The notes beneath the pieces were generated by a model, which searched no databases, was not told the origin of the DNA, and saw only the letters and a list, made by a program, of their open reading frames with translations. A stretch of 64,000 nt of DNA from Kordia periserrulae (GTDB lineage: Bacteria > Bacteroidota > Bacteroidia > Flavobacteriales > Flavobacteriaceae), in assembly GCF_003054265.1 (NCBI RefSeq), contig NZ_QBKT01000004.1, positions 248,001 to 312,000 of the forward strand. The letters run 5' to 3'. Positions 16,438 through 44,863 of this stretch are shown here, piece after piece. The position numbers and the translations under genes were made by a program. The stretch's first letter is position 1, and every line of letters starts with the position of its first letter.

Positions 16438-16452
16438 AATATACTAGTTTGT

Positions 16453-17337: not shown

Positions 17338-17346
17338 TGTTTTTAT

Positions 17347-18258: not shown

Positions 18259-18291
18259 TTTTAAATTTTATTCTGATTTATAATAGGTTTT

Positions 18292-19725: not shown

Positions 19726-19735
19726 ATTGGTAATT

Positions 19736-21253: not shown

Positions 21254-21255
21254 GA

Positions 21256-22545: not shown

Positions 22546-22556
22546 GATTGCTGTTT

Positions 22557-25976: not shown

Positions 25977-26045
25977 AATTGATTAGGTATCTTTGGTCTT
26001 AGTATTAGGTTCGTTTCTATTATTGTGATATAGTGTTGTTAATTT

Positions 26046-26879: not shown

Positions 26880-26893
26880 GTTTTACTCTTTTT

Positions 26894-27730: not shown

Positions 27731-27749
27731 GTATTCAATTTTTGAGTTC

Positions 27750-29210
27750 TTAATAGAAATAGATATTGTCAACTAGGAATGATGCTCCGTTTGAAGAAAC
27801 AAAAACGATGTACCCAATATTCGCCAAGTTAGGATTTCCAGATCCGCCACCACCTGTTGGCAATGTAAAGGCACTTAGTGGAATGTCAATTCCAACCCAT
27901 TGTCCTTGAATTAATTGGCTACTTACGTTGAATCCTCCGGCAGAACCGTCACCAAAACCATTGTCTGTATCGTCAGGTCCAAAATCGATAAGTTCCATCA
28001 CCAATGCTGAGCCCGCCGCACTTGTTAGTTGAATGTCTACGTGTACCATTGTTTCTCCGGTTACGTTTACAGTTCCGTCCCAACCAATTCCTATAAAGTC
28101 AATTCCTTCATAGCGCACATGATTGTTTCCGTCAAAGGTTTGTACCGAAATGTTTTCTGTATTTGAACCTGCAAAAACACCTGGATCGAATCCGTTGACA
28201 CTTACATACGAGTCACTGTAGATTGAAATGACATCTGCTTCTGCCTGCGTTGGAACTGGTGCATTTACAAATGCTCCCGAAGATGTGATTTCTAACGAAC
28301 CATTTGCTTGTTGATTCCCAATACTTCCTGTGATTGTTGCCACACCAGAGCCAATAACATTTACATTGCCAAAAGTATCTACTGTAGCAACTGAGTTGTT
28401 TGAAGAAGCAAATTCAAAATATGCTATGGCTGCATTTACAGATACATTTTGTCCATTGGCAAGATTGAACGTTGCGCCCAATCCGTCAATGGCTTGCATG
28501 TAGCCTGTGAAATTGTCAATGGCAACATCTTCTCCATTGAGAATGTACGGAAATAGCAAGCTTGTTGTGCCTAATTTTTCAAATCGTAATTCGTCAATCC
28601 AAAAAGTATATCCGATGTTATCGCTGAAAGAATCAGCAATCGCTGGATTGTCATTTCCTAGCGGATCAAATGAACCTGCTGAGAATAGGAACATTCCTCT
28701 TTCTTGGGTTAATTTGGAAGCATCTGGAATTGGAATCACATATTTTGACCACCCGCTTGTCAATTGAATTTCTGTTGATACAGGATATAGGTTTGTTTCA
28801 AAATCGGTTCCGAAACCAACAGTTACATTTCCCGTTAAGGTTCCTTTTGCCCAAAAAGTCAATGCGTCATAGCCTGATAAATCTCTACCAGCGCCACGAT
28901 CTCTAAAGATTCCACCAATAAAACCACCATCTGGGTCACTTGGACTTGGCACGTCAATTCGAATAGAAGTTGAACCTTCATAGGCTTCGTTTTCGTCCGT
29001 TCCAAAACCATTAGGATTGGCTCCCACCGCAGGATCAAATGATTCGAAGAATGCATCTGTAAGTCCCACTGGAGTATCCGTAAAAATGTCTGGTGTATTT
29101 GGGAATGATGCTAATACGGCATCATCCGATATTTCTCGTTCACAACTTACGGTTAGCGCAATTGCCAATCCTGCAAGCAGTGTATTTTTTATATATGTAA
29201 ATGCTTTCAT
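27750..29210 (-). CDS. Surface lipoprotein with two binding-like modules and a Big_2-like domain
   Basis: A lipoprotein signal with lipobox TVSC (Cys23) is followed by three parts. Residues about 50-215 form a jelly-roll-like module (STSIRIDVPSPSDPDGGF ... YTFWIDELRFEK). Residues about 220-320 resemble a bacterial Ig-like Big_2 domain (NNSVATVDTFGNVNVIGSGV). Residues about 325-486 are the ADVISIYSDSY module shared with two other proteins of the locus, ending in ASFLVDNIYFY. No catalytic residues are seen, so it is probably a glucan-binding surface protein. It lies between the hydrolase/beta-barrel gene (12 bases upstream) and GH16 (19 bases downstream) in operon B. Confidence 0.78.
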   Translation of the reverse strand: MKAFTYIKNTLLAGLAIALTVSCEREISDDAVLASFPNTPDIFTDTPVGLTDAFFESFDPAVGANPNGFGTDENEAYEGSTSIRIDVPSPSDPDGGFIGGIFRDRGAGRDLSGYDALTFWAKGTLTGNVTVGFGTDFETNLYPVSTEIQLTSGWSKYVIPIPDASKLTQERGMFLFSAGSFDPLGNDNPAIADSFSDNIGYTFWIDELRFEKLGTTSLLFPYILNGEDVAIDNFTGYMQAIDGLGATFNLANGQNVSVNAAIAYFEFASSNNSVATVDTFGNVNVIGSGVATITGSIGNQQANGSLEITSSGAFVNAPVPTQAEADVISIYSDSYVSVNGFDPGVFAGSNTENISVQTFDGNNHVRYEGIDFIGIGWDGTVNVTGETMVHVDIQLTSAAGSALVMELIDFGPDDTDNGFGDGSAGGFNVSSQLIQGQWVGIDIPLSAFTLPTGGGGSGNPNLANIGYIVFVSSNGASFLVDNIYFY

Positions 29211-29222
29211 TGTACTAGCTTA

Positions 29223-32200
29223 TTATTTTCCGATGTTGATGTGTATGTAAGTTCTAATTTCCCATTCGGTACCATTGTCAAATCCGACAGGACTTAGAAT
29301 TGGTACGTTTGAAAATTGTCCAGCTGTTGCATTTGGAGCGTATCGTGGAGAAAACTCGTTTAGCGAACGCCATGTTCCACGAATTCCGATGCGAGTACTT
29401 GGCAAAATGAACCAATCTGGTTTTCCGAGTGATGTAGAAACGTCTAACATCAACTGTGTTGGATATGTTAGGTTAAAATCTCTATGGTAATCAAATGGTC
29501 CCCAATCATTGATTTTTACGTGTGATTCTACTTTTATATTCTTGTAAATCATTCTGATATCACCTCCAAAACGCTTGATGAGTCTGTTGCTATCACCATT
29601 TGCCTGTCCGTTTCCGTAGTAGAAGTTACCAATGATTCCTAAATCTGGAGATACTTTGGATACCATACGGGAGTTGATTTCCCATAAATCTTCCGCAGGA
29701 ACTGTATTTGGAAATGCAAAGAATTGACGATTTGCGTTGAAACCAATGTGTGCATCTTGCTGTGTTGGCAAGTGGCGGAATACAAATCCTAAGTTGGCAG
29801 CAAATTTTGCATCTTCTGCTCTGTCATTGTTCCACTCATACATCCAAGTTCCAGGTGTTGGATCATACGTGATTAAAATTTCACCTGCTGTAGTTTCACG
29901 ATTTCCACCGCGTACCGCAAATGGATCATCAATTACATTACGAAGTCTCGCCGGTGCTGGCGCATCCGTAGGAATTGCTTCTACTAATGGTTTTTGGTAC
30001 ATGAAGTTTGGCGCAATTTGGAAATCTCCAAACGTATATGTGAAACCAGATAAGAAGTTGGTCATGTTTCCACTTCCTGAGTCTCTTAATCGCCATCCTG
30101 TAAAAGTTTGTGTTTGGTCAGCACCACCATTAGCAACTAATCCCATTACAGAACCTTGTGCATACCAATTGAAACGTCCACCTTGATAGGTAATTTTTGC
30201 TTTTGCTCCCCAGTTGTCACTAGATTTTACTTTGTCTTGTACAACAACGTAATTTCCTGACGAACCAGCCACATCTTGATAGGTACTTCCATTTAAAGGA
30301 CTTCCTGCCCAGATACCTCCAAGTTGCAACCCAAATTTACCAAAATCACGTTCTACAGCTAACGTAGCGCGTTCCATTGGCCACGGTGGAATTACACCAC
30401 TTCGCAATTGATTTTCATCTAAAACACGACGTCCTGTCTCATCAAACGTTAAATCGGTTTCAAAATCTCTGTGATAAATTCCTGTTACGTCCCAACCTTT
30501 GATGTTTCTTGAGTATTTGAATAACATTGTTGGATTGGCACCCCACCATAATTGTGGACCAAACGCTGCTTTTGCGCCATTTAATGCACCTTTACCGTCT
30601 ACTTCGAAACCTAGAATTTCACCTCCGTAGATGTCTAAGTTTGGACCATAGTTGGCTTCTGGGTAAAGTCCGAAGAAATCACCTTCGTATCCCCAATGAT
30701 AGTGTCCTGTTCGATAGAATCCTCGTAAATCGAAATCTTTCGCTTTCCATTCAAATTCAGCTTGGTACACATTGACGCGGTTGTTATCGTTGAGTACCAC
30801 TTCATTTCCACTAGCATCCGTAATTGTTACTGGACGCGCTCGGTTTTCATAGAAAATTTCATTGATAGGATTTTCAGCTACTTTTCCAATCACGTTCATA
30901 ACTACATTGGCTCTCATGTTTGGCGCAGGATTTCCTTCTACACCAATAAAGTACGATTGCATGTGATCGAATCCCAATTGATTTGGAAAATCATTTGAAT
31001 CTGGATCAGGATTGTCTGGTGTTGTGATTAAGCTTCCTCCTGTATTGAAGGTTGTAAATTCTGCTCTCAACTGACTTACGCGTATTTTTTGACTGCTTCC
31101 GCCGCCCATCGCTGCTTGGTCTCCTCTAGCTTTGAGCACCGCATCCATAATTTGAATGTTGTCAAAGTAATTTTCTACAAACTTTTTGGTAACTCCTTGT
31201 GCGTACGGATCTAGTTGATGTGCTTCTTTTAATGCATAATATGCTGCACGTGGATAGAGTGTGTATAATCCTCTCGCATTTGTTGGTCCTTTGGCACAAA
31301 CGCCAAACCATTCTTCGTTCATGTTATTGTCTGTTGATTTTTCTTGGTCTCTAGAGTATCCTCCGTTTGGCCAAGAAGCATTGTTATCATGAACGTCTAA
31401 GTTTTCTGTTTGCTTGTATTTCCACCATCCGTCAGAGAATTGGAAGGTAAAACCTCCTAAAGAGTTTTGTGCGCCACCAACTCCAGCAGCATTTGCATAA
31501 ATTTCTTTCCAGTTTCCTGTCATGTAGTATGCTTGCGAGTATTGATCTTCTTGATTGTCTCTCGCATTGAAAGCATCAGCACCAAATTCTGCAAATAGAA
31601 TCGGCATGTCTAATTCGTCTTTTACTCGTTGAAATGCATCGCCAAAAGAGATTCCGCGATACATGTTTGTACCATAGATATCAACGTCTGTACATTCTTC
31701 TTTTACCAAATCAGCATATAATAAGTCTCCATTACAGATGGCTATTGGATGCGACGAATCAATTTTCTTTACTTCGATAGCCGCGTCATTGAATGCTTTG
31801 TAGAGTGCACGTGCGGCTTTTATTTTTTCAGAATCGACTCCTTCAATTGGAATTGCTTCTGTTTCTGCACCAGTCCATGATAAGTGGTAGTTGTTTTCAT
31901 TTCCAATCATGTATAAGAGTAATCCTGGTGTGTTTTTGTAGGTATTTGCCATGTCGATGGCTTCTTGCATTAATACCTCTCGGGTTGCAGGATCGGCATA
32001 ATCCGTTTGCGGTGTCCATGCGCCGTTGATGGTAAGTCCATACGCACCAAACGTAATGTTCAACATGGTATAGATGCCGTAGTTTTCATAGATATACGTA
32101 ATCCACTTTGGTGGTAAGTTATACGTTCTAATGGCGTTTACGCCCATGTTTTTGAGTAGTAGCATTTCAGCATCTAGAGCAGATTTGATAACATCGTCCG

Positions 32201-32399
32201 ATCGGTTCCATATTCCAGGATCGGTAATGGTTGAACCTATTGGCACGTAGTCCCAGTTCATACCATTGATCATAAAATCTTTTCCATTCACTACTAATTT
32301 CATTCCTTGATCCGATTTCTGAACAGTTACATTATCTGCTTGCGAAAACATAGATGTCGTTAAAAAAATCAGTGCTAACGTTAGAAAGGTTTTTTTCAT
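29223..32399 (-). CDS. Clan GH-A glycoside hydrolase fused to a predicted outer-membrane beta-barrel
   Basis: A signal peptide (cleaved about after residue 20, FSQ) is followed by a TIM-barrel hydrolase (about 30-430). It carries NGKDFMINGMNWDYVPIG, the likely acid/base Glu168 in MIGNENNYHL, and the likely nucleophile Glu271 in PILFAEFGADAF. The fold is clan GH-A, closest in appearance to GH2-type or GH72-like TIM barrels, but I cannot assign a family. From about residue 455 to 1058 the sequence changes to alternating aromatic/polar strands rich in Tyr, Trp, Phe and Gly (WYAQGSVMGLVANG, FQIAPNFMYQKPL, VKINDWGPFDYHRDFN), ending in EIRTYIHINIGK. This looks like a porin-type outer-membrane barrel. 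It would display the enzyme at the membrane. It is the first gene of operon B and has its own conserved upstream region. Confidence 0.75.
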   Translation of the reverse strand: MKKTFLTLALIFLTTSMFSQADNVTVQKSDQGMKLVVNGKDFMINGMNWDYVPIGSTITDPGIWNRSDDVIKSALDAEMLLLKNMGVNAIRTYNLPPKWITYIYENYGIYTMLNITFGAYGLTINGAWTPQTDYADPATREVLMQEAIDMANTYKNTPGLLLYMIGNENNYHLSWTGAETEAIPIEGVDSEKIKAARALYKAFNDAAIEVKKIDSSHPIAICNGDLLYADLVKEECTDVDIYGTNMYRGISFGDAFQRVKDELDMPILFAEFGADAFNARDNQEDQYSQAYYMTGNWKEIYANAAGVGGAQNSLGGFTFQFSDGWWKYKQTENLDVHDNNASWPNGGYSRDQEKSTDNNMNEEWFGVCAKGPTNARGLYTLYPRAAYYALKEAHQLDPYAQGVTKKFVENYFDNIQIMDAVLKARGDQAAMGGGSSQKIRVSQLRAEFTTFNTGGSLITTPDNPDPDSNDFPNQLGFDHMQSYFIGVEGNPAPNMRANVVMNVIGKVAENPINEIFYENRARPVTITDASGNEVVLNDNNRVNVYQAEFEWKAKDFDLRGFYRTGHYHWGYEGDFFGLYPEANYGPNLDIYGGEILGFEVDGKGALNGAKAAFGPQLWWGANPTMLFKYSRNIKGWDVTGIYHRDFETDLTFDETGRRVLDENQLRSGVIPPWPMERATLAVERDFGKFGLQLGGIWAGSPLNGSTYQDVAGSSGNYVVVQDKVKSSDNWGAKAKITYQGGRFNWYAQGSVMGLVANGGADQTQTFTGWRLRDSGSGNMTNFLSGFTYTFGDFQIAPNFMYQKPLVEAIPTDAPAPARLRNVIDDPFAVRGGNRETTAGEILITYDPTPGTWMYEWNNDRAEDAKFAANLGFVFRHLPTQQDAHIGFNANRQFFAFPNTVPAEDLWEINSRMVSKVSPDLGIIGNFYYGNGQANGDSNRLIKRFGGDIRMIYKNIKVESHVKINDWGPFDYHRDFNLTYPTQLMLDVSTSLGKPDWFILPSTRIGIRGTWRSLNEFSPRYAPNATAGQFSNVPILSPVGFDNGTEWEIRTYIHINIGK

Positions 32400-32593
32400 C
32401 TGTTTGTTTTTAGTTTGTTAATTAGGTCAGATGGAATTCGCTTAGAATCTATTTTGTGAATTACGAAGGTGATTCTGCTCATTTCATTGCTTTTTTAATT
32501 TACATTGGTTTGGTATGGTAGCGTAATTCACTATGTTTTTTATGTTTTCTAAATCTATATATAATTATTATGGAATTGTAAATTTATACTACA

Positions 32594-32754
32594 ACAAAAA
32601 ACATACATCTCAATAATAAGATGTTAATTTTATATTTTTTTCAATATAGTTAGCCTGTTTTTGCAGGATTCACAATATTTTCAGATGAACCTTTTTTTAA
32701 AACATTATAGCAACAACAGTTGATTTTTACTGCATGTTGTGGTAATGTTGTAGT
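32594..32754 (-). promoter_or_regulatory. Predicted promoter/operator region of glucan operon B
   Basis: Three blocks recur at the same spacing as upstream of susC (see 41516-41704). They are ACAAAAAACATACAT (32594-32608), ATTCACAATA (32668-32677, 74 bases from the first block's start in both places) and GTTGTGGTAATGTTGTAGT (32736-32754, offset 142 versus 143). In the last block GTTGTGGT and GTTGTAGT start 11 bases apart, one helical turn. Read on the minus strand, TATTGTGA of block two might be the -7 element and the direct repeat an activator site upstream of it. Regulator identity is inferred. Confidence 0.65.
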
Positions 32755-32971
32755 GATTTGAAAGCTTTTCTAGTATCTATTTTTAAACAATTTTATAGTT
32801 TTCTTGCTTTTTCACTTTTTTAAACTGTGAAACGAAATCGATATCGAAATATGGAATTCGCATTTTTTAGGTGTAGATTTTAGTAATATGGTGTGTTAAT
32901 GTCTTAAAGATTGTAAAATTTATTAAGGTATCCTAATTTTAAAAAACTAATTTTTACAATTGTTTATTTGT

Positions 32972-33009
32972 AATGTTAGTTCTTTTCAAGCTTGAAAAGA
33001 ACTAACATT
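32972..33009. terminator. 38-bp perfect palindrome after operon A
   Basis: Two 19-base arms meet with no spacer at AAGCTT, so the RNA would form a hairpin with a small internal loop. It begins 39 bases past the stop of the GH16 gene. No clear T tract follows on the minus strand, so it may be a transcript-stabilising hairpin or terminator, or a dimeric protein site. Confidence 0.55.
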
Positions 33010-33047
33010 TACAAGTTGTATAGCTGTATTCAATAAATTTTCAATGC

Positions 33048-34673
33048 TTATTGATACACTCTTACATAGTCAATTTCCATTGTATCTTGCGTAAAATTAG
33101 GATCAATATCTCCTCCTAAGGTTCCGCCCATGGCAACATTTAAGATTAAGAAGAAATCTCCGTTGAAAGGCAATGTAACATTGTTATCTACCGTATGATA
33201 TACAAATCCATCTACTAAAAATGTGATGGTTGTATCGGTCCATTCAACTGTGTAATTGTGAAATTCGGAAGTAGATGTTGGCAAGGCTGTCGTAGAAGAA
33301 TCTCCAGCACCTGGAGAAACTCCTGGATGATGTACCGTTCCAAGAACCGTGTTTTTGTCTTGTCCTTTTTGCTCCATAATATCAATTTCTCCGCAAACTG
33401 GCCAACCTACCGTGTCAAAATCGGCTCCGAGCATCCAAATTGCTGGCCATGTTCCTTGTGATGCAGGCAATTTGGCACGCACTTCTACTCTACCATAGGT
33501 AAATTCATAAAGGTTTTCCGATTTTATACGTGCAGACGTGTAGTTGTCTCCAGCTTCTTTGATAGCAGTTATTTTTAACATACCATCTTCCACAATAACG
33601 TTGTTTGCATTGTTTGTATAGTTTTGCACTTCTTCATTTCCCCATCCGCCATCGCCGAGGTCGTATGTCCAGTTGTTAGCATCTGGCGCTCCAGCAACAT
33701 CAAAGTTATCTTCCCAAACTAAGTTGTTATACTGCGTTTGGAAATCACTTGAAGAAGGTTCTGCCGATGTAATGATAAACCACCAATCAAATTCGCCGTT
33801 TCCGTCTGTAGTTCTTAGTATCAATTCATTTGGGACAGAGCGATCAAAGATTTCGTAATTGTGTGTTCCTCCTGTGTAATACCCGATAAATCCATTTCCT
33901 GTAAGGCTAATCGTTTCTACACCTCCTGGCGCGATTAATGCCCAACTTTCTTGGAAATCATTGTAAGGAAGGTTTTCAATATCAGAACCGTCAACAGTTC
34001 CACCAGAAGCGCCTAGTTCGTCTATCAAATTGATACGACCAAATACTGTTCCTGTTGGATCTTCTCCGCCTTCGTCATTGGTATTATCCGTAACAAATGT
34101 AAATGTTCCATCTGCGCTGAAGATGTATCTATCATCGTACATTCCTACATCTGCTTTTTCATCAGGTTGCGCTCCATACCATTCGGTTGGAATGCTTCCA
34201 CCGACAGGTCCTAATCCGAAGTGACCTGCTTGCTCAGATTTGATTCTCCATGTTCTAGAACCGTTACCAACTAATTTTTCTATCAATTCTGCAGGAGGTG
34301 CGTACGTTGCTAATACATCTACTGTTATTGTAGTTGATGTAGAATTTCCACCTGTTCCATACGCTACAACATTAACAGTGTATGTATTTACGCCTAATTC
34401 AGAGAAAATAAACGACGCTGTTCCTGTTGCGGCTGTTTGTTGATTGGCTCCATAAATAAATCGGTAGGAAATGGCATCATCTGCAGTAGCGCTAAAATTA
34501 ACAACACCACTTCCATCACCATTCGGATTGTTTGCATCTTGTCCAACAATGGTTGCCGTTACTTGCAAATTTGTTGGCGTTAATAAGTCTCCTACAGTTG
34601 CCTCATCTTGACAGCTTACTGTAAACAGTACGACCGCAAGTAAGGATGTAAGTATATATTTTATGTTTTTCAT
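33048..34673 (-). CDS. Multi-domain GH16 lipoprotein, surface endo-beta-1,3-glucanase
   Basis: A lipobox TVSC (Cys21) is followed by a PKD-like domain (about 35-122). A beta-barrel-like module follows (about 130-303, TWRIKSEQAGHFGLGP ... YDDRYIFSADGTFTFV). This module shares the W...GP...YDD-x-Y-x-F-x-x-DG-x-F pattern with the tandem modules of the next gene. The GH16 domain (about 315-541) has the EIDIME active site with nucleophile Glu429 and acid/base Glu434, and GTWPAIWMLGADF. It is the last gene of operon A after susC, susD and the modular lipoprotein. The likely role is outer-surface cleavage of laminarin before SusCD uptake. Confidence 0.92.
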   Translation of the reverse strand: MKNIKYILTSLLAVVLFTVSCQDEATVGDLLTPTNLQVTATIVGQDANNPNGDGSGVVNFSATADDAISYRFIYGANQQTAATGTASFIFSELGVNTYTVNVVAYGTGGNSTSTTITVDVLATYAPPAELIEKLVGNGSRTWRIKSEQAGHFGLGPVGGSIPTEWYGAQPDEKADVGMYDDRYIFSADGTFTFVTDNTNDEGGEDPTGTVFGRINLIDELGASGGTVDGSDIENLPYNDFQESWALIAPGGVETISLTGNGFIGYYTGGTHNYEIFDRSVPNELILRTTDGNGEFDWWFIITSAEPSSSDFQTQYNNLVWEDNFDVAGAPDANNWTYDLGDGGWGNEEVQNYTNNANNVIVEDGMLKITAIKEAGDNYTSARIKSENLYEFTYGRVEVRAKLPASQGTWPAIWMLGADFDTVGWPVCGEIDIMEQKGQDKNTVLGTVHHPGVSPGAGDSSTTALPTSTSEFHNYTVEWTDTTITFLVDGFVYHTVDNNVTLPFNGDFFLILNVAMGGTLGGDIDPNFTQDTMEIDYVRVYQ

Positions 34674-34684
34674 CGTTTTCTGTG

Positions 34685-36784
34685 TTAATTTTTAATTAGC
34701 TTAAATGTCCAGAATACACCAGCACCAGCTTCTATTTGTACTGTAATCGTATTATCGTCAATAAAGGTGATATCGTACGTAATTGAGCTTGGCGCATCTG
34801 CTGGATTTGAAAGTTCGCCGGCATTATTCGCTTTTGGAATTCCCAAATACGCTCCTGTTCCGTTGAGCGTTACCGTTCCTGAAGTGTCATCGTACACGTA
34901 GGTTGCTGCGGCAGATCCGTCATGTGGTGCTACTGGCGTTCCACAAGCGTCGCCACTTCCGCTTTGCCATCCTTCAATCCAAGTATCCATTCCTAGTACA
35001 TTACTGAAAGATCCGTCTGCATTAAACACATATTCGTCGTCGTAGAAACAAGCTCTTTCTGTTACTTGTGCATCACTGATAGCAAACCAATCGCCTGAAC
35101 CTGCTGTTGGTCCTACTGCTAATGAACCTGCTTCTGGAGCAATACTCCATGAACCTACTAATGGTGAACTTGGTACATCGCCTTCACGAACTAATTTGAA
35201 CGTCCAGAATACACCTGAACCTGCTTCAATTTGAACGGTCATATTGTTGATATCGTCTAATGTGACATTGTATGTGATAGAACTTGGCGCATCTGCTGGG
35301 TTTGAAAGTTCTCCCGAGTTATTTGCTTTTGGTAAAGCGATGTATGCTCCTGTTCCGTTGATTGTAACTGTTCCTGCCGTTTCATCATACGTGTAGGTTG
35401 CTGCTGCAGATCCGTCATGCGGAGCTATCGGTGTTCCGCAAGCATCGCCACTTCCGCTTTGCCAACCTTCAATCCAAGTATCCATTCCTAATACATTGCT
35501 AAACGATCCATCAGTTCCGAAAACATAGGTATCATCGTAATAACAAGCTCTTTCTGCTACTTGTGCATCACTGATAGAGAACCATTCTCCAGAACCTGGT
35601 GTTGGTCCTACAGCTAACGATCCTGCTACTGGAGCCACTTTCCATGTTCCTGCAATGGTTGGTGCTTGTGTTGGTTGCTTGTAGAAATAAATATTGTCAA
35701 TAAATACCGTTCCTTGCGCCCATGGCGTTCCTACAAATTTTAATTGAAAGATTTCATTGACTGATAATCCTTGATCAACATATTCTGCAATTGGAATTTC
35801 GATAGTTGTCCATGAATCTGCTGTTAATGGTCGCGTTACTGGCGCTTCTGTTGTTGCTGACGGACTGTTGATGAGTGATACTTCTAAATCAGTTACTACA
35901 TCCGCTGTCCATACATCTAAGTGTAAAAATTCCATGCCTGAAACATCAATCGTTGTTCCGTCTGCCAACGCAATCCCTTGATAACTGATGTTGATGTATT
36001 GAAGTATTTGGTCGCCATTCAAATCGTACATTGCCCAGCTACTTCCTTGTCCGCCTTGTCCCCAATCTGGGAAGTAGTTAGTTCCTGGCACATCGTCGTA
36101 CGCACTGCTAAATATAGAAATAACGTCTTCTGCTGCTCTAGCAGGTTGTGCTGGCGCAGATGCTATTGGCGCTACGATTGCTGTTACTTCAAAATCTTCT
36201 GTATAGGTAGTGGTTTCAATTGCTCCACCCATCGCTACTACTGTAATCGTATAAATCCCTGGTTCGTCGTAGATGTACGAAATGGTTTCTCCGATGTTTC
36301 CTGTTACAGGCTCACTTCCGTCTCCAAAATTGATTTGGTTACTCATAGCGAAATCCGCTGTAGCGGTAATGTTTACCTGCTTAGATACGCCTGGATCATT
36401 TTCAATAGTTACTACTAAGTTTTGCGGTGCAATGAATGATACGACGATTTGCTGCGTCAGCGTTGTAGTGTCGCCATTTAATGCTTTTGCTGTTAAAGTA
36501 ACATCATACGTTCCTTCTGCGTATGTGTGTTCTACAAAACTTCCTGGAGCTATGCCTGTTACGGCGTCTGAGCCATCTCCGAAGTTTAAGTTATAGGTAG
36601 TAACTCCTTCGCCAAGTGGCGTGATTTTTACCAGACCTGTATTGTCTTGTGTAATTTCTGTGAGTAAGGACAGATTTGTAGGCGCGTTAACGGTATCTAC
36701 AAAGTCCAAGTTTTCGTCGTCATCGCAACTGAAGACAATCAGCGCGATAAGACAGATACTGAATACATATTTTATTGCTTTCAT
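34685..36784 (-). CDS. Modular surface glycan-binding lipoprotein (SusE/SGBP position)
   Basis: The start chosen is the ATG before MKAIKYVFSICLIALIVFSC (lipid Cys20). An in-frame ATG 51 bases upstream would overlap susD. The N-terminal part has two PKD-like repeats (about 25-205, with NLNFGDGSDAVTG and QINFGDGSEPVTGN). An ADVISIFSSAY module follows (about 220-370). The C-terminal 330 residues are two near-identical modules of about 165 residues (GTWKVAPVAGSLAVGPT and GSWSIAPEAGSLAVGPT). No catalytic motif. Gene order after susD matches surface glycan-binding proteins of PULs. It probably holds the polysaccharide near SusCD and GH16. Confidence 0.82.
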   Translation of the reverse strand: MKAIKYVFSICLIALIVFSCDDDENLDFVDTVNAPTNLSLLTEITQDNTGLVKITPLGEGVTTYNLNFGDGSDAVTGIAPGSFVEHTYAEGTYDVTLTAKALNGDTTTLTQQIVVSFIAPQNLVVTIENDPGVSKQVNITATADFAMSNQINFGDGSEPVTGNIGETISYIYDEPGIYTITVVAMGGAIETTTYTEDFEVTAIVAPIASAPAQPARAAEDVISIFSSAYDDVPGTNYFPDWGQGGQGSSWAMYDLNGDQILQYINISYQGIALADGTTIDVSGMEFLHLDVWTADVVTDLEVSLINSPSATTEAPVTRPLTADSWTTIEIPIAEYVDQGLSVNEIFQLKFVGTPWAQGTVFIDNIYFYKQPTQAPTIAGTWKVAPVAGSLAVGPTPGSGEWFSISDAQVAERACYYDDTYVFGTDGSFSNVLGMDTWIEGWQSGSGDACGTPIAPHDGSAAATYTYDETAGTVTINGTGAYIALPKANNSGELSNPADAPSSITYNVTLDDINNMTVQIEAGSGVFWTFKLVREGDVPSSPLVGSWSIAPEAGSLAVGPTAGSGDWFAISDAQVTERACFYDDEYVFNADGSFSNVLGMDTWIEGWQSGSGDACGTPVAPHDGSAAATYVYDDTSGTVTLNGTGAYLGIPKANNAGELSNPADAPSSITYDITFIDDNTITVQIEAGAGVFWTFKLIKN
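34707..35660. repeat. Tandem internal gene duplication, 495-bp period
   Basis: Two consecutive coding segments of about 465-470 bases, offset by 495 bases, encode almost the same module. Long identical stretches include the parts for ERAC-x-YDD and NVLGMDTWIEGWQSGSGDAC. The DNA similarity implies a recent duplication or ongoing gene conversion. Confidence 0.85.
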
Positions 36785-36810
36785 ATTGTATGTTTTCTTT
36801 TTTCTAGCGA

Positions 36811-38277
36811 TTAATATCCTGCATTTTGCTGCCAACGATTTCCTGCCAATTCAATTTCGATTCGTGGAATTGGAAATATTTCGTTTTTCCCTGGCGTAAA
36901 CCCTGGAATAGTACTTGTTTCTCCTGTTCTAACTTGATCGAAGAAACGATGTCCTTCGCCTGCTAGCTCTCTTCTTCTTTCTGCTAATACGTTTTCTAAC
37001 GTTGCTGTAATTCGATTGTTGGTATTTCCAAAAGCTCTATCGCGAATCGCATCTAAGAATGTTTGCGGATTGGCAATTGGTGCTGGCGCACGCAAGTTGG
37101 CTTCAGCTGCCATTAATAGTACGTCTGCATAACGAATAGCTCTGTAGTTGTTACTACGGTTGATGTTTGCATCTTGAATTACGTTGTCATTCGCATACGG
37201 AATGTATTTTAGGTTGAAGTATCCTGTATGCTCAGAACCTTCTGTAAAGGTTACATCTGGACGTTCTACTACAAATGCATTGATGTCTAATACCGTAGCT
37301 GCCAAACGCGAATCTCCAGATTGGTATAAGTCTACCACATCTTGTACAGGCACGTTGAAACTGAAACCTGAAGCATACGGACTAAAGTTTCCACTTTGAA
37401 AACGTGGTCCCATAAATCCTACGGCAACATTTCCTTCTACACATTGAAAACAACCGAAACTTGCTCCTTCTTGCGTACCTGAGTATTGAATTTCAAATAC
37501 AGATTCTGAGTTGTTTTCGTTGTTGTTTAGGAAGATTGTATTAAAATCTTGTACCAATTGATATTGTCCAGAGTTAATAACTTCATTAAAAGCTTGTGCT
37601 GCTTCTGTAAATTTTTCTTGGTAGAGATAGATTTTACCAAGCAATGCCCACGCAGCTCCTTTGGTTGCGCGCCCTGGTTGTGTTTGCGTCCAAGGTAAGT
37701 TTGGAATGGCATTCATCAAATCTACTTCTATTTGTAAATAGACATCTTCTTTTGGTGTTCTGTCAATCGATTGTGTTTCTTCGATGGTGATTCTTCTGTC
37801 GGTGTACATTGGAACATCTCCAAAGAATTTTACCAATTCAAAGTAATAGTACGAGCGTAAGAATAGATTTTCTGCTAATAGTTGCTCTTTTCCATCAAAG
37901 TCTAGATTGTCTTGAAATTCTACAATATAGTTTGCACGACTGATTCCTGCATACATCCACTGAAATACGTTTCGCAACGCACCATTATCTGGTGTATGAA
38001 TCATGTCGTCAATTTGTTGCCAATCGAGAACATCTGTAGGATTTTCTCCTCCACAGAGACTGTTATCAGAGGCAATTTCACCCAAAATATTATTCAAATA
38101 CGTTGTAGAGAGTAAATCGTACACACCTACAAGTGCATCTTGATAGTTTTCTGGAGTGTTGAAAAAGTTTTCGGTGTTTTCTTGCCCTGGCGGCAATATT
38201 TCTAAGTAATCATCACAAGATTGTATGCTCATAATGATTAGCAGTGCGGCTGCTAGTTTTGTTATCTTATTATACAT
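36811..38277 (-). CDS. susD: SusD-family glycan-binding lipoprotein
   Basis: The start is the ATG before MYNKITKLAAALLIIMSIQSC (lipid Cys21). The in-frame ATG at 38301 would overlap susC. The SusD/RagB domain spans most of the 488 residues, with typical segments DYLEILPPGQ, RSYYYFELVKFFGDVPMYTD and GRATKGAAWALLGKIYLYQE (TPR-like). The C-terminal RADVLLMAAEANLRA / ERRRELAGEGHRFFDQVRTGE part is also typical. It forms the outer-membrane lid over the SusC channel and binds the incoming glucan oligosaccharide. It is translated 10 bases after susC. Confidence 0.95.
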   Translation of the reverse strand: MYNKITKLAAALLIIMSIQSCDDYLEILPPGQENTENFFNTPENYQDALVGVYDLLSTTYLNNILGEIASDNSLCGGENPTDVLDWQQIDDMIHTPDNGALRNVFQWMYAGISRANYIVEFQDNLDFDGKEQLLAENLFLRSYYYFELVKFFGDVPMYTDRRITIEETQSIDRTPKEDVYLQIEVDLMNAIPNLPWTQTQPGRATKGAAWALLGKIYLYQEKFTEAAQAFNEVINSGQYQLVQDFNTIFLNNNENNSESVFEIQYSGTQEGASFGCFQCVEGNVAVGFMGPRFQSGNFSPYASGFSFNVPVQDVVDLYQSGDSRLAATVLDINAFVVERPDVTFTEGSEHTGYFNLKYIPYANDNVIQDANINRSNNYRAIRYADVLLMAAEANLRAPAPIANPQTFLDAIRDRAFGNTNNRITATLENVLAERRRELAGEGHRFFDQVRTGETSTIPGFTPGKNEIFPIPRIEIELAGNRWQQNAGY

Positions 38278-38287
38278 AGTGATGTGT

Positions 38288-41200
38288 TTAGAATGATACA
38301 TTGATTCCTGTTGTAAATGTTCTTGCTAATGGATATTGCCCTAAATCAACTCCTGCTGCTAATGGATTGGCATTGTTGACATCTGGGTTGTATCCACGAT
38401 ATTTTGTAAACGTATACAAGTTGTTAACACTGAAGTACAGTCGGAAGCGATCTAAGTGAATTTTTTCTAAGATTTCGCTTGGCAACGAGTACCCAATTTG
38501 AATGTTTTGTATACGTAAGTATGATCCATCTTCTACAAAGAAGTCTGAGAATAAACGGTTGTTAGACGCATTTGTAGAAGCTCTTGGTACAGAGTTCGAC
38601 GTTCCTTCGCCTGTCCAACGATCTAAGTATAGTGTTGGTTTGTTACTGTATGTTAAGAAACGCTCATAACTTCTTGCAATGTCATTTCCGATAGAAGCGT
38701 ATAATGACGTACCAAAGTCAAATTGTTTGTAATTTAAGTTTAAGTTGAAGCCCATGGTAAAGTCTGGAATTGGATTACCAATCATCGTTTGATCGTCTTC
38801 ACTTCCAAATTCAATGACGCCATCACCATCCACATCTACGTAACGAATGTCTCCTGGTTGCGCACCTGGTTGTGCTGCATGCGCATCAATTTCTGCTTGA
38901 TTTTGGAAGATTCCGTCTGTTTGTAATCCCCAAAAAGCACCAATTGGTAAGCCCGATTGGAAACGCGAGGTTGTTTGATTCAAATCGAATAAACCTCCTG
39001 GCAAGAATCCTGCGGCATTGTTTACTTCAATGGCTTCGTTGTCGATACTTGTTAGGTTGTACCCAACTTGAATGCTGAAATCGTCAGAGAAATCGTGAGA
39101 GAAGTTGATACTTAAATCCAATCCTCTGTTTTCTACGATTCCCGCATTTACGACTGGCGCTGAACTTCCTCCAGCACTTGTTCCTAATAACGCAGATACT
39201 TCTGGCACTAATAACAAGTCTTCCGTACGTTTTTTATAGTAATCGACAGTTACGTTTAATTTACGATCAAATAAGCTCATATCCAAACCAATGTTGGTTT
39301 GTTTCGTAGTTTCCCACTGTAAGCTAGGGTTTGAGAGTGCTCCAATGGCATTTCCAAACGATAATACATCGCCAAAAGGATAGGTTGCTTCGGCATTGGC
39401 TCCTTGTAACAATCCTAACCAACGATAACTACCAATTCGGTCGTTACCTGTGATTCCCCAGCTTCCTCTTAGTTTTAAGTTGTCGATGATGCTTGATTTG
39501 AAGAATTCTTCTTGCGAAACAATCCAACCTCCAGATAATGATGGAAAATATCCTACACGATTGTTTGGTCCGAAACGCGTAGAAGCATCACGACGTAACA
39601 TTGCTGAAAATAAATACTTTCCTTGATAATCGTATTGAACTCTACCAAAGATAGAATATAAACGATCTTCTCCAATACCTGTTGTTGGACTTAGCGTTTG
39701 TTGAATGTCATTTGGATCGCCGTTTGGCGTATCGTCATCATCAATGATAAATGATTGTGTATTGCTTAAATAGGCATTGCTCCACTCGTCTGGTCCGTTT
39801 ACTAAGAAACCTGTTGCGAAGAATCCGTCGTATTGGAAACTTTGTAAGGATGTTCCTAGTAATCCATCAAAGTTGTGATCTCCGAAGGATTTTTTGTAGT
39901 TGATGAAACTTTCCCAAGTGTAATCAAAGAAGTTTTGCACGTTTTCACCTACCAAACTGTACACATCTCTATCGCCATCATCATTCGTATCTAATACAAA
40001 TTGGTTGTTGGTTACATTTACTGTGTTTTGCACTTTGTTTGGTCCGTAGTATTGCAATGGAATGTAAAAACGGTTGACAACATCCGCATAGTTAAAGTTG
40101 AAACGCGATGTCGCTTGTAAATCTGGAATAATTTCATATTGCAATTCTAACTTTCCTGTGAAACGATTTGTTTTTGTTTCGTTGAAGGTATTGTTGATTA
40201 CCGCAAAAGGGTTAATGATTTCAATTCCTTGCTCAGAGCCAATATATGAGAATCCGCGCGAAGGACCGCTTCCGTCAGTTCCGTCAAATATTGGTGTTAA
40301 TGGTGAAGCATTTGCTCCATAATATAATATAGAACCACGTCCACCTTCTGGAATTCCTCTTCTTTTTACATTTGTATATAGAAGTAAGGTGTTTAATTTT
40401 AAATCTTCTGTCAAGTTGATACTTAAGTTATTTTTAAGCGTCCAACGTGTAAAGTTTGATTTTTCACTCGCAATGATACCATCTTGTCCTAAATAACCTC
40501 CACTAATTCCATAAGTGATGTTTTCTGAACCTCCAGACGCACTTAAACTGTGACTGAATAATGGCGCTGTCGTAAACAATTCATCTTGCCAATCAGTTCC
40601 TACACCTAAAGTGGAAAGGTTTGGATATGGCAACGGATTTCCATCTGCAATTTCAGTTTCATTGACATATACTCCATATTCTGTAGCATTCATTAAATCT
40701 AACGTATTAGATGTTTCCTGTACAGCATAGAAAGAGTTGTAATTGAATTTTGTTTTTGATTCTCTACGTCCGCTTTTCGTGGTGATTAAGATAACTCCAT
40801 TAGAAGCTTGCACACCATATATAGCAGAACTGGCATCTTTAATGACATCTAGTTTTTCAATATCATTTGGATCAATCACACTTAAATCATCTCCAACATT
40901 GACACCATCTACAATAATTAACGGATTGTTGTTTCCATTAGATGTAATACCACGAATACGAATGTTGAGTGCCGCACCTGGCGAACCCGAAGTAGCATTT
41001 ACTTGTACTCCCGAAGCCGATCCCTGTAGTGCTTCTTCCACTCGCACAGGGTTACGCTCTAAAATTTCTTCCGATTCTACCGAAGAAAAAGCTCCTGAAA
41101 CCAATTCTTTTCGTTGTGAACCATATCCAATAACGACTACAGACTCTAGCGCTTCTGCATCTTCTTTTAAGACTATGGTTAGTTCTTTACTTGAGGTTAT

Positions 41201-41449
41201 GACAACTTCTTGAGTTGCATATCCAACGGAAGAAAATACAATTGTACTTCCGCCAGGAACATTTTTCAGACTGAAATTTCCATCAAAATCAGTGGACGTT
41301 CCTTTTGAAGTGTTTTTCAGTAAAACGGTAACTCCAGGTAGTGGCATTTGACTGCCATCTTCTACTACTTTCCCTTTTACTTCAAACTCTTGCCCAAAGC
41401 TCCATATCGAGGAGAGCATGAAAGCAAGGATGATAACATAACGGTTCAT
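38288..41449 (-). CDS. susC: SusC-family TonB-dependent outer-membrane transporter
   Basis: A signal peptide (to about residue 20, SFGQ) is followed by a CarboxypepD_reg-like domain (about 22-100, VKGKVVEDGSQMPLPGVTV ... FDGNFSLKNVPGG). The plug (about 110-230) contains NIRIRGITSNGNNNPLIIVD and SSAIYGVQASNGVILITTK. A 22-strand barrel ends in ARTFTTGINVSF. Length 1053 is typical of SusC. It imports oligosaccharides energised by TonB. As the first gene of operon A it is preceded by the conserved blocks at 41516-41704, and a divergent small peptide gene starts 345 bases away. Confidence 0.95.
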   Translation of the reverse strand: MNRYVIILAFMLSSIWSFGQEFEVKGKVVEDGSQMPLPGVTVLLKNTSKGTSTDFDGNFSLKNVPGGSTIVFSSVGYATQEVVITSSKELTIVLKEDAEALESVVVIGYGSQRKELVSGAFSSVESEEILERNPVRVEEALQGSASGVQVNATSGSPGAALNIRIRGITSNGNNNPLIIVDGVNVGDDLSVIDPNDIEKLDVIKDASSAIYGVQASNGVILITTKSGRRESKTKFNYNSFYAVQETSNTLDLMNATEYGVYVNETEIADGNPLPYPNLSTLGVGTDWQDELFTTAPLFSHSLSASGGSENITYGISGGYLGQDGIIASEKSNFTRWTLKNNLSINLTEDLKLNTLLLYTNVKRRGIPEGGRGSILYYGANASPLTPIFDGTDGSGPSRGFSYIGSEQGIEIINPFAVINNTFNETKTNRFTGKLELQYEIIPDLQATSRFNFNYADVVNRFYIPLQYYGPNKVQNTVNVTNNQFVLDTNDDGDRDVYSLVGENVQNFFDYTWESFINYKKSFGDHNFDGLLGTSLQSFQYDGFFATGFLVNGPDEWSNAYLSNTQSFIIDDDDTPNGDPNDIQQTLSPTTGIGEDRLYSIFGRVQYDYQGKYLFSAMLRRDASTRFGPNNRVGYFPSLSGGWIVSQEEFFKSSIIDNLKLRGSWGITGNDRIGSYRWLGLLQGANAEATYPFGDVLSFGNAIGALSNPSLQWETTKQTNIGLDMSLFDRKLNVTVDYYKKRTEDLLLVPEVSALLGTSAGGSSAPVVNAGIVENRGLDLSINFSHDFSDDFSIQVGYNLTSIDNEAIEVNNAAGFLPGGLFDLNQTTSRFQSGLPIGAFWGLQTDGIFQNQAEIDAHAAQPGAQPGDIRYVDVDGDGVIEFGSEDDQTMIGNPIPDFTMGFNLNLNYKQFDFGTSLYASIGNDIARSYERFLTYSNKPTLYLDRWTGEGTSNSVPRASTNASNNRLFSDFFVEDGSYLRIQNIQIGYSLPSEILEKIHLDRFRLYFSVNNLYTFTKYRGYNPDVNNANPLAAGVDLGQYPLARTFTTGINVSF

Positions 41450-41515
41450 ATGGTTAATTTTTTAATTCGAGGCAATTTATCCACAATTGCTAACGAATCC
41501 TTAAAAAACACCTAT

Positions 41516-41704
41516 ACAAAAAACATACATGTTAATTTTTAGTTGCTATTTTTAAATAATTGTTAAGAAAACCCCTTTGTTTATACGTTATTCACAATAG
41601 TCTTGTTTTTGAAAAAAAATGAATGTTGAGGTATGAAAATTCTAACTACAACGTTATTGTTGTGGTAATGTTGTGGTCTTTTTTAGTAATGTTGTGGTCT
41701 TTTT
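41516..41704 (-). promoter_or_regulatory. Predicted promoter/operator region of glucan operon A, divergent from a peptide gene
   Basis: The blocks are ACAAAAAACATACAT (41516-41530), ATTCACAATA (41590-41599) and GTTGTGGT at 41659, 41670 and 41691. Copies two and three are part of a perfect 19-base direct repeat GTAATGTTGTGGTCTTTTT (41665-41683, 41686-41704). Copy spacing of 11 and 21 bases puts all three on one DNA face. The first two copies and the other two blocks recur with equal spacing before operon B. The adjacent LuxR-type sensor-regulator (42062-44863) is the best candidate to bind here. The rest of the 345-bp gap is AT-rich with nothing else seen. Confidence 0.7.
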
Positions 41705-41794: not shown

Positions 41795-41962
41795 ATGAAA
41801 AAATCTGTTAAAAAATTAAACTTACGTAAAATTGCCATTTTAAAATTGAACCAAATACCAACGATTGTAGGTGGACGAGATGTACCTATTGATGCATCTG
41901 GAGCACAAGGATGTGGCGGTGCAAAAACGCAGCCTGAATGCCCAACTACTGTTACAGGATAA
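41795..41962 (+). CDS. GG-leader natural-product (RiPP) precursor-like peptide inside the glucan locus
   Basis: This 55-residue gene starts MKKSVKKLNLRKIAILKLNQ and reaches a double glycine at residues 26-27 (IPTIVGG). The Lys-rich leader with an LNLRK motif is of the Bacteroidota GG-leader precursor type. The predicted 28-residue core has Cys40 and Cys49, Ser35 and Thr at 45, 51, 52 and 54, which could allow thioether or other crosslinks. The GG position is identical to that of the gene at 8276-8410, with Arg-Lys at 11-12 versus 12-13 and Ile24 shared. It is divergent from susC and lies 90 bases past the operator-like GTTGTGGT repeats, so it may share regulation. No maturation or export gene is in the window. 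Confidence 0.6.
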   Translation: MKKSVKKLNLRKIAILKLNQIPTIVGGRDVPIDASGAQGCGGAKTQPECPTTVTG

Positions 41963-42061: not shown

Positions 42062-44863
42062 TTATAAATTTAAAAAGTAATCGTTCAGATTGATTTCTCG
42101 TGCGAGACTGATCTTTTTACGCAGACGATAGCGCTTTATTTCCACACTTCGAACCGATATGTTCAATAACGGCGCAATTTCTTTTGAAGATAGATTTAAA
42201 CGCAAATACGCGCATAATCGCAAATCGTTTGCCGTAAGTTGTGGATGCAATTCTTTTACTTTTTTAAAGAAGTCTTTATCTGCATGATTGAACGCTTCTT
42301 CAAAGAATTTCCAGTCTTCCGCATTGTTGATATTTTTATCAATGAGCCTTATTACTGGTTTTACATCTTGTTGTTCTGTTTTTTGTTTTTGCAATTCCTG
42401 CTTGATGTTGTTCAGTGTTTCATTCTTCTTAATCATGTTCATCGTAGCAATTGCCAATTCCCTATTTTTCGCTTCAATATCGCTGTTTAATTGGGTATTT
42501 TTCAATTCAACGATTTCTTTTTGTGCTTCCAATTCTTTTAGAGCCAATTCGCGTGTTTTCTTTTCTAACAAACGCTCACGCTGCTTTTTGTAATAACGCT
42601 TGTAAAAACTATTAATCGCTGCAAAAAGTAAGATTGTAAGAATGGCATAAATAGCAATGGCGACATTCGATAGATACCAAGGGTGATTAATCGTGAATGA
42701 ATAGGTTGCTGTGTTTTCCGTGACTTCGTTGTTAATTCGTGCTTTTACTTTGAATTTGTAACTGCCATGCGGTAAATTCTCATACGATATTTGCGATTGC
42801 GTACTCCAATCGCTCCATTTATTGTACAAACCTTCTAATTGATAAGAATATTCCGCAACTTCATATTTGTTATACGCAGGAATACTGTAACTGAATGCCA
42901 AATAATTTTCGTTAGCATTAAATTCTTGGTCTTCTGCTTGTAAAGCTATTTGCCGCTCAGCTCCTGTGAGTGTACGATTGGAAACCGAATTGATGTGTAT
43001 TTCATACTTTTTGGACGCTATTTCACCTAAATCAATGGTAATATAACCGTTTGAAGTTCCTAAAAGATAGGTTTTGCCTTTGATATGCGAAATGTTTTCA
43101 TAACCTTTCATCTCGTTACGCAACGATTGCGGAATGGCAATTCGCTGTATTTTAAAGTCTCCGTTGATTTTTTCTTTGGTAACGTAATTGATATAATTAT
43201 TTGTAAACGCCCATAAATAGCCAACATCGTCTACCACTAATTTTCCTGAAGTGTACGCATCATTTTCAAAAATGGCACTCAATGCTGCGTTTTTCTGGAA
43301 GCTTCCAGAAGCAATATCGTAATTGAAAATACCATTTTTATTAGCTTGGTAAATGTTACCATCAAAAGTGACCAAACTGGTATTGGCGCTTTTTTCGATG
43401 TCTGTGTTTTTGGTAAATGATACAACTTCTTGATAGTTTTCATCTAGCGTCAACTCATATACGCCTTTATATTCGTGATTTACCAGAATTTTTGTCGGTG
43501 TCGCCCATTCAAAATGTTTGGATGAAATGTCAAATCCTTTCAATTTATAGTCTAACTGCCAAGTATCGTTTTGTCTTGATAAAATGTACAATCCGTCGTA
43601 ATTTCCTTGAATGATTTTGTTATTCACACCTGGAATTTTCTTAATATCCCACGTTCCTTGAATAGTTCCTATTTGCTTCTGTGTATTTCCTTTGATGAGA
43701 AACGTTCCTGTGTCGTGTCCGCAGAACAATTCGCCATCAATAATCCGCAAACACCATACTTGCCCTTTGGTTCCTGCTATAAACTCAAAATCGTTTGTAC
43801 TATTGACCGATTTGTAAAATAATCCCTGATTGGTTCCTAAATACACATAATCTTCATGAATGATGGAAGCGTAAATCGTTCCCAAACGTCCTGTTTGATC
43901 GGCATAGTATTTAAACGGTTCTTTGGTGTTGATACAATTGATACCATCGTCCAAGCCTACCCATAAATTTCCTTCTACATCTTCAAATAACGACAACGCC
44001 GTATTATCGCTCAATCCTTTTTCTTGGTCAATATGATAGCGCAATGTTCCTTCGGGCGAAATCAAAAAAATTCCTTTGGCAATGGTTCCTAACACAAAAC
44101 TTCCATCTGCCAATTGCATACTGGTGTAAATACTTTTTTGAGTCGTATCTGCATGATACGGAAGTTGCAATGCTGTCAATTCGTTTTTATCAAGCGTAAA
44201 CCAGCCACTATCGCGTGTAATGATAATTTTTTGATTGTTTTTCGGGAAAATTCCAACGACTCTGCTATTCTGAAGAATCGCATCATTAGTTACCAATACT
44301 TTTTCGCCATTTTCAATACTATACAAACCTTCTCCAAGCACCTGAAAAAGTAATTCGTCCTGAATTTTATATAGTTTGGTAATGGTATTGGTTGCATTGA
44401 TGACTTTTAAGCTATTGTCTTCCGTATGATACGTATAAATTCGATCTAGCGATTGAAAAAGCACCCATTTATCCAGTTGAATGATTTGCCAAAACTGTTC
44501 ATCTTCCTTCATATCTACTTGCAAAACATCACTGAGAGAAGTATATTCTAGTGTGCCCGCAGCATTGCGTTCCCAATAGCCAAAATTCATATAGCAACCT
44601 GTGTACACTCTATTTCCAATAACTTTCACCGAACGCATAATGGTCTCATTCGGCGATTTGTAGAGTTTCCACTGCGCTCCGTTAAATTCCAACAATCCTT
44701 GATTATTCGCTACATACATATATGCATCGTCAGATTGTGAAATCATCCAATTTTGATTGCCTGCGTTGTATGTTTTTGGAGTATATTTTATAATTGGTGG
44801 CAATTCCTGTGCAAAGGAACAGCTGATAAACAATACAAGTAATGCTTTTACTAAGGTTCGCAA
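42062..44863 (-). CDS. Beta-propeller/Y_Y_Y sensor with C-terminal LuxR-type DNA-binding domain
   Basis: A signal-like N-terminus (to about FAQ, residue 19) is followed by a long periplasmic region of two-component-regulator propeller repeats (for example DNTALSLFEDVEGNLWVGLD). A Y_Y_Y domain (about 660-735, NKYEVAEYSYQLEGLYNKWS) and one transmembrane helix (about 738-758) come next, then a coiled coil (about 765-845). The C-terminal helix-turn-helix (about 870-920) includes LSSKEIAPLLNISVRSVEIK. There is no kinase domain, so the protein seems to couple ligand binding directly to DNA binding from the membrane, as SusR-type PUL regulators do. It lies next to the susC promoter on the same strand and is the likely activator of both glucan operons. 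Confidence 0.85.
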   Translation of the reverse strand: MRTLVKALLVLFISCSFAQELPPIIKYTPKTYNAGNQNWMISQSDDAYMYVANNQGLLEFNGAQWKLYKSPNETIMRSVKVIGNRVYTGCYMNFGYWERNAAGTLEYTSLSDVLQVDMKEDEQFWQIIQLDKWVLFQSLDRIYTYHTEDNSLKVINATNTITKLYKIQDELLFQVLGEGLYSIENGEKVLVTNDAILQNSRVVGIFPKNNQKIIITRDSGWFTLDKNELTALQLPYHADTTQKSIYTSMQLADGSFVLGTIAKGIFLISPEGTLRYHIDQEKGLSDNTALSLFEDVEGNLWVGLDDGINCINTKEPFKYYADQTGRLGTIYASIIHEDYVYLGTNQGLFYKSVNSTNDFEFIAGTKGQVWCLRIIDGELFCGHDTGTFLIKGNTQKQIGTIQGTWDIKKIPGVNNKIIQGNYDGLYILSRQNDTWQLDYKLKGFDISSKHFEWATPTKILVNHEYKGVYELTLDENYQEVVSFTKNTDIEKSANTSLVTFDGNIYQANKNGIFNYDIASGSFQKNAALSAIFENDAYTSGKLVVDDVGYLWAFTNNYINYVTKEKINGDFKIQRIAIPQSLRNEMKGYENISHIKGKTYLLGTSNGYITIDLGEIASKKYEIHINSVSNRTLTGAERQIALQAEDQEFNANENYLAFSYSIPAYNKYEVAEYSYQLEGLYNKWSDWSTQSQISYENLPHGSYKFKVKARINNEVTENTATYSFTINHPWYLSNVAIAIYAILTILLFAAINSFYKRYYKKQRERLLEKKTRELALKELEAQKEIVELKNTQLNSDIEAKNRELAIATMNMIKKNETLNNIKQELQKQKTEQQDVKPVIRLIDKNINNAEDWKFFEEAFNHADKDFFKKVKELHPQLTANDLRLCAYLRLNLSSKEIAPLLNISVRSVEIKRYRLRKKISLAREINLNDYFLNL

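Follow-up and report, generated by a model that had tools for sequence, protein, structure and literature searches.

Laminarin is a major form of marine algal carbon, with flavobacteria prominent among the organisms that consume it. MalT of E. coli offers one point of comparison for the regulator described below, in that it carries a LuxR-type helix-turn-helix (HTH). MalT is described as a STAND-class signal-transduction ATPase (PMC4381067), and at every promoter that it serves its sites are reported to be direct repeats (Vidal-Ingigliardi 1991, cited in PMC8265627). The closest published work comes from Bacteroides, for which Ravcheev et al. (2013, PMC3878776) predicted motifs of SusR-like regulators; these are membrane proteins with a periplasmic sensor and a C-terminal HTH, and their predicted operators are direct repeats with unusually long, roughly helical spacing, the centres being 67 or 77 bp apart. 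According to the same paper, hybrid two-component systems (HTCS) likewise have direct-repeat sites, spaced by about 21 bp. We found in that paper, which deals with Bacteroides genomes, no paired layout such as the one reported here, and no operator for flavobacterial laminarin loci or for this regulator type was found among the literature matches listed, subscription papers being mostly outside the search. Here we describe a predicted operator of this kind from a 64,000-nucleotide stretch of the Kordia periserrulae genome (assembly GCF_003054265.1, contig NZ_QBKT01000004.1, positions 248,001 to 312,000; hereafter the window), where it precedes two glucan operons, A and B, beside the gene of a putative SusR-like one-component regulator (coordinates in Table 1).

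The regulator, whose gene adjoins a susC/susD pair, fits the SusR-like plan of a predicted periplasmic sensor, a transmembrane helix and a cytoplasmic C-terminal HTH, with no kinase. By hydropathy only, its N-terminus is hydrophobic and suits a signal peptide, and a single transmembrane stretch lies near residues 728-755. Its sensor part gave Y_Y_Y and Reg_prop in Pfam (the latter just under its cut-off) and matches the solved HTCS sensors 3v9f and 4a2l; unlike HTCS proteins, it yielded no histidine kinase, receiver or AraC domain in Pfam scans. It shares with MalT the LuxR-type HTH and, as predicted here, sites in direct repeat but differs in having a transmembrane stretch and no STAND domain (no NOD/STAND ATPase match in Pfam at E <= 0.01). 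The C-terminal GerE HTH was recognized by Pfam in 20 of 30 aligned members of the regulator family (best E 9.9e-10), Sigma70_r4 matches also occurring among members, and the HTH of the window regulator itself matched only Sigma70_r4_2 (E 0.00099, under cut-off); a match to BT3442_fam was weak and far below the cut-off of that family. Among the matches listed, the protein is 95% identical to one from Kordia sp. TARA_039_SRF and 71-80% identical to other Kordia records.

The initial annotation of this DNA had reported three blocks shared by the two promoters, and their positions proved exact: ACAAAAAACATACAT (block 1) at 32594 and 41516, ATTCACAATA (block 2) at 32668 and 41590, and GTTGTGGTAATGTTGT(A/G)GT (block 3) at 32736 and 41659, with offsets from block 1 of 74 and 142 before operon B and of 74 and 143 before susC. 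The GTTGTGGT units are indeed 11 bp apart, a third unit lies at 41691, 21 bp past 41670, and the perfect 19-base direct repeat occurs at 41665 and 41686. In the transcribed sense, block 3 marks a tandem pair (the distal pair), ACCnnnACA-TT-ACCnnnACA, with 11 bp between units. Block 1 sits in TGTATRTTTTTTGTnnnGGT, about 148 bp nearer the gene; because ACCnnnACA on the opposite strand reads TGTnnnGGT, and a weaker TGTAT stands 11 bp before the latter, block 1 can be read as a second tandem pair (the proximal pair) in inverted orientation. Thus, what had been described as a plain promoter word is a real conserved element but part of a second operator pair, and the predicted operator consists of two phased halves, with the likely core promoter 50 bp further on. 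This design differs from the SusR-like one in that each half is an 11-bp tandem pair, the halves are inverted and mostly 100-165 bp apart, and a -7-like box stands at a fixed distance; the 67/77-bp direct-repeat spacing was not seen at the window promoters, which have two inverted pairs about 148 bp apart.

The words of both pairs are rare. The exact pair GTTGTGGTNNNGTTGTRGT occurs at only two places in the 4.73-Mb genome, the operon A and B promoters, the next matches having two mismatches, and in 13 of the 99 genomes searched, where a reversed control pattern gave no match. Block 1 extended to 20 letters (TGTATGTTTTTTGTWKWGGT) is found with at most one mismatch only at the same two promoters; at three mismatches, 21 further genome matches appear, not above control. 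Block 3 with up to three mismatches has four matches in the window against 0.29 expected, three of which overlap in the operon-A array. Block 2 has three exact copies in the window and, allowing one mismatch, 20 matches against 12.8 expected; its 10-mer was exact solely in the two promoters of this genome out of 18 compared and in none of the 16 other Kordia-genus promoters, and we rejected it as a functional element. The initial annotation had named a lack of conservation before orthologous operons as a refuting condition; blocks 1 and 3 are conserved there and block 2 is not.

Conservation was assessed in 97 promoters, one per genus, each taken as the DNA that separates the regulator from the operon next to it (up to 900 bases fetched): 17 including the window, and 80 genera chosen best match first among the ortholog matches listed. 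Regulator orthologs at E <= 1e-225 occur in 214 of 397 family genomes and 143 of 231 genera. The distal threshold (score >=11/14) was reached in 92 of the 97 and the proximal one (>=13/15) in 80, and both pairs occurred in order in 80. Controls gave 6/97 distal and 2/97 proximal passes on the wrong strand, and 46/2910 and 11/2910, respectively, after shuffling. The layout of operon B was present in all seven Kordia-genus promoters aligned; no operon-B operator was flagged in genomes G003 and G009, and in G007 and G010 the contig stretch stops too early for that promoter to be judged. Away from the regulator the layout also occurs in four promoters designated C (G008, G027, G077 and G067, the last with a degenerate proximal half), and the earlier suggestion that the words mark a regulon holds for operons A and B here and extends to a third promoter in G008. 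In G005 (locus L083), about 10 kb of other genes lie between the regulator and operon A and the operator stays with the operon, so that it is not part of the regulator 3' end; that candidate was rejected, the layout being present in operon-B and C promoters distant from the regulator, and an RNA element was set aside on the same grounds.

A TA..TT box, which was not included in the operator search pattern, is found at an offset of exactly +50 bp, counted from where the proximal pair starts, in 76 of the 80 promoters with both pairs, the next best offset accounting for eight, and it reads TAnnTTTA in 53, TAnnTTG[CT] in 10 and TAnnTTTG in seven. In Flavobacterium psychrophilum, -7 boxes are given as TAnnTTTG or TAnnTTGY at -12 to -5 (PMC9723704). 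If the box is the -7 element, the proximal pair falls at -62 to -43, an activator position, and transcription would start near 41467 for operon A and 32545 for operon B. No TTG -33 box is conserved across the 80 promoters.

Spacing between the starts of the distal and proximal pairs clusters at 114, 126, 136 and 148 in these 80 genera, with a best-fitting period of ~11.25-11.5 (Rayleigh p ~1e-20, kinship ignored). When kinship was taken into account through 40 disjoint tree pairs, the spacing difference was 0-2 in 20, 9-14 in 13, 20-25 in five, 36 once and 82 once, and in no pair was it 3-8 or 15-19 bp; these gaps indicate that the spacing changes mostly by approximately whole helical turns. 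When only the 19 differences that fall between 4 and 40 are taken, p was 0.0006 at a period of 11 and 0.009 at 10.5. A quick tree of SusC N-terminal stretches required at least 26 changes of rung to account for the 71 on-rung rows of the 80; the four rungs themselves were set post hoc, and the nine off-rung rows did not enter the count. As a separate observation, L101 (G038) has, at ~2958-3000 in regulator orientation, a distal pair followed by an immediate inverted copy, ACCACAACATTACCACAACATCATGTTGTGGTAATGTTGTATG, and an unusual distal-proximal spacing of 217.

Paralogs 31-34% identical to the laminarin regulator occur at another locus with SusC/SusD-like proteins and an enzyme that, from its translated sequence, we take to be GH3-like, and they adjoin words of their own. 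Those of clade P1 have distal ACTACGTCATTACTACGTCA and inverted proximal TGACGTAATTnnnATGTAA, with the word TACGTCA; the layout is present in 24 of 25, with spacings of 103-106 in 20 and 114-117 in four, and a -7 box at +50 in 21, +49 in two and +51 in one of the 24 passing. Where P1 promoters have an extra TACGTCA, its distance from the start of the distal pair is 68 bp in 22 of 23; this direct unit, 66 bp away from the matching letters of the first distal unit, may be compared with the 67 bp between centres in SusR-like operators. Clade P2 uses TACATCA / TGATGTA, with the layout in 20 of 24, spacings of 101-106 in 19 of the 20 passing (the odd row, G165, has 45) and the box at +51 in 14, +50 in four and +52 in two. 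G008p and G009p, from the genus of G010p, are excluded from these counts. Among the initial 18 paralog regulators, 11 show the layout by score with the words of their clade; G052p, G029q, G029r, G030p, G033p, G011q and G035p fail, G011q having laminarin-type words by eye.

The words vary with the clade of the regulator and, for the most part, with its recognition helix. E[IV]KRYR is found in 16 of 18 laminarin-clade rows, ET[HQNY]RYR helices go with TACGTCA (base G in 23 of 25, T in two), and E[IVL][HQ]RYR helices go with TACATCA (base A in all 23 scored); the P2 member G441 has a laminarin-type helix. Proximal words shift together with distal ones among clades. Moreover, in G029, G034 and G173, laminarin and paralog regulators coexist in one genome, each beside its own words.

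Searching the class more widely, we found that 78 of 396 genomes contain relatives of the regulator at E <= 1e-60. Of 18 loci, 16 were scored, L284 (genome G732, family f76) and L299 (its own family, P1 type) being excluded, and 11 have the layout, as ACTACATCATTACCTCTCA with inverted TGATGTATTAATGTAGAG or close variants at spacings of 142-163. All 11 belong to family f54 (11 of its 13; five from g334, five from g320 and one from g445), which, judged from its proteins, is Sphingobacteriales, i.e. another order; the consensus used for scoring f54 was derived from those same loci. The helix is EIRRYR, and CAnnTT stands at +50/51 in 10 of the 11. L284 is a distant relative with a word just downstream of the regulator; its words are of laminarin type, with a proximal pair unclear by eye.

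We consider it likely that the two blocks are halves of one operator for the regulator encoded at 42062-44863, acting as phased activator sites and probably through looping. The adjacent kinase-less membrane protein with a LuxR-type HTH had been nominated as the best candidate binder, and its conservation with the operator across genera, and words that shift with the recognition helix, favour the nomination. In the scheme that we propose, its C-terminal HTH would read tandem 9-bp ACCnnnACA units set one helical turn (11 bp) from each other. The pair at -62 to -43, if the TAnnTT box is the -7 element, would adjoin the core promoter, where an activator could touch RNA polymerase, and the second pair, in opposite orientation and mostly ~100-165 bp further upstream, would be kept on the same helix face. 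Periplasmic laminarin fragments would be bound by the propeller/Y_Y_Y sensor; the regulator, as a dimer or a larger assembly, might then occupy both pairs, probably with the DNA looped next to the membrane, and would switch on operon A (SusC/SusD, PKD protein and GH16) and operon B (GH16, GH149, GH17, GH30 and symporter). More tentatively, and with rather more doubt than conviction, we suggest that this grammar of a -62/-43 tandem pair, a phased inverted partner 100-165 bp upstream and a membrane-anchored loop may be common to the kinase-less membrane LuxR-type regulators of at least two orders, and that two or three recognition-helix residues may largely suffice to predict the operator letters.

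Several observations weigh against these proposals. The fitted period is ~11.3 and not 10.5 bp, the rungs vary among clades (148 vs 151; 104 vs 102), 9 of the 80 spacings lie off four rungs that were picked post hoc, and phasing is the sole observation that would point to looping. Of the 97 promoters, 17 miss one or both thresholds; three of these (G402, G311 and G277) have no following same-strand gene within the 900 bases, and in the rest the pairs are degenerate or missing. Two of the 18 laminarin-clade helices differ, with DVK or EMK (G011, G021), and L284, with an ETK helix, stands beside an ordinary ACCACAACATTACCACAACA with no G-bearing word; the link between word and helix is not strict and spans few clades, hence few evolutionary events. 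Finally, the layout is missing beside the regulator in L285 and L297 of f54 and in all three loci inspected from f17 and f18 (L298 and L301, and L300, respectively).

Opposite-orientation phased pairs 100-165 bp apart would also suit a short repression loop, in which the unliganded regulator bridges the pairs and holds off RNA polymerase until laminarin fragments release it. We regard this as unlikely, given that the proximal pair occupies a place typical of activator sites, upstream of the -33 region and with a constant 50 bp to the -7-like box, that no TTG -33 box is conserved, and that the named relative SusR is described as an activator (PMC3878776). Quite improbable is a reading of block 1 as itself the core promoter, with only the distal pair as operator: its TATGTTTT would be the -7 box and differs from TAnnTTTG by one letter, but diverged genera retain, by eye, the TGTAT and TGTnnnGG of the proximal block and not the -7 letters, a separate TA..TT stands at +50 in 76 of the 80 promoters, and the proximal blocks of P1 (TGACGTA...) lack any TAnnTTTG-like word there, yet keep the +50 box.

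Binding of the blocks by some other, unlinked regulator, with the adjacency of the LuxR-type gene incidental, would accommodate operon-B promoters far from the regulator gene and the common word retained with the ETK regulator of L284; we think it very improbable, since all 13 genomes with the exact pair carry a regulator ortholog and paralogous regulators adjoin their own words, which vary with the recognition helix. That the operon A and B promoters resemble each other through recent copying of one from the other is scarcely credible and largely refuted: the exact match of block 2 only within this genome would fit such an event, but the spacers differ between the two operons and each promoter is separately conserved in the genus, that of operon A in 80 of 97 genera. 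The activator operator of two phased halves remains the reading that we prefer.

Table 1. Positions in the window of the operons, the regulator gene and the elements of the predicted operators
Feature	Position	Strand	Details
Distal pair, operon A	41658..41677	-	Units 41670-41677 and 41659-41666; transcribed sense ACCACAAC-ATT-ACCACAACA
Third distal unit, operon A	41691..41698	-	21 bp outside (upstream of) the pair
Extra inverted unit, operon A	41646..41653	-	GTTGTAGT in transcribed sense; just inside the distal pair
Proximal pair, operon A	41510..41529	-	TGTATGTTTTTTGTATAGGT; inverted relative to distal pair; covers block 1 minus one base
Predicted -7 box, operon A	41472..41479	-	TAAATTGC; 50 bp from proximal start
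Distal pair, operon B	32736..32754	-	Transcribed sense ACTACAAC-ATT-ACCACAAC
Proximal inverted pair, operon B	32588..32607	-	TGTATGTTTTTTGTTGTAGT
Predicted -7 box, operon B	32550..32557	-	TAGATTTA; 50 bp from proximal start
Block 2	41590..41599 (operon A); copy 32668-32677 (operon B)	+	Outside the conserved layout
SusR-like one-component regulator (putative)	42062..44863	-	Pfam domains, hydropathy
Operon A	33048..41449	-	SusC 38288-41449, SusD 36811-38301, PKD protein 34685-36835, GH16 33048-34673
Operon B	14833..32399	-	Extent inferred from gene spacing

Besides the two pairs, the third unit at -21 scores at least 5/6 in 34 of the 80 genera, and, by eye, 8 of 11 operon-A promoters from the Kordia genus have the extra inverted unit at the matching place. 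Spacers in that genus (e.g. 41570-41600) seem to share, again by eye and in many operon A and B promoters, a degenerate ATTGnSAAT...AAAGGG...ATTGAYAAT, possibly the site of another regulator.

Operon B encodes a glycoside hydrolase (GH) 2-type TIM-barrel protein, another protein that weakly matches Big_2, GH16, a PKD protein, a GH149 1,3-beta-glucan phosphorylase, GH17, GH30, two more GH17 and a protein secreted by the type IX secretion system (T9SS), as well as a GPH-like symporter whose score is just below the curated cut-off of its family. This set of GH2-type, GH16, GH149, GH17 and GH30 enzymes with a GPH-like symporter fits use of beta-1,3/1,6-glucan (laminarin), and operons A and B probably serve laminarin digestion. 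Just past the glucan operon, the T9SS-secreted product of 13752-14711 (minus strand) carries glycogen-binding domains of the CBM48/AMPK1 type. In the gap that separates the regulator from the operon-A operator, and in the opposite transcription direction, lies a 55-residue open reading frame (41795-41962, plus strand; MKKSVKKLNLRKIAILKLNQIPTIVGG...CGG...), which to us resembles a leader-GG or lanthipeptide-type precursor; it has no NCBIfam match at E <= 0.001, and it was the sole match when one leader-like pattern was run over the open reading frames of the window.

The analysis thus provides a predicted operator, with base-pair predictions, for laminarin loci in 80 genera, tied to a regulator type that would work from the membrane. 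The membrane anchor makes the proposed scheme of activation plus looping unusual, and because the two inverted sites are in helical phase, the idea that an activator bound to the membrane loops the DNA can be tested directly. The link between words and recognition helix, in turn, offers a route to assigning regulators to their target genes and, if the grammar is indeed shared by at least two orders, polysaccharide regulons would become readable straight from genomes.

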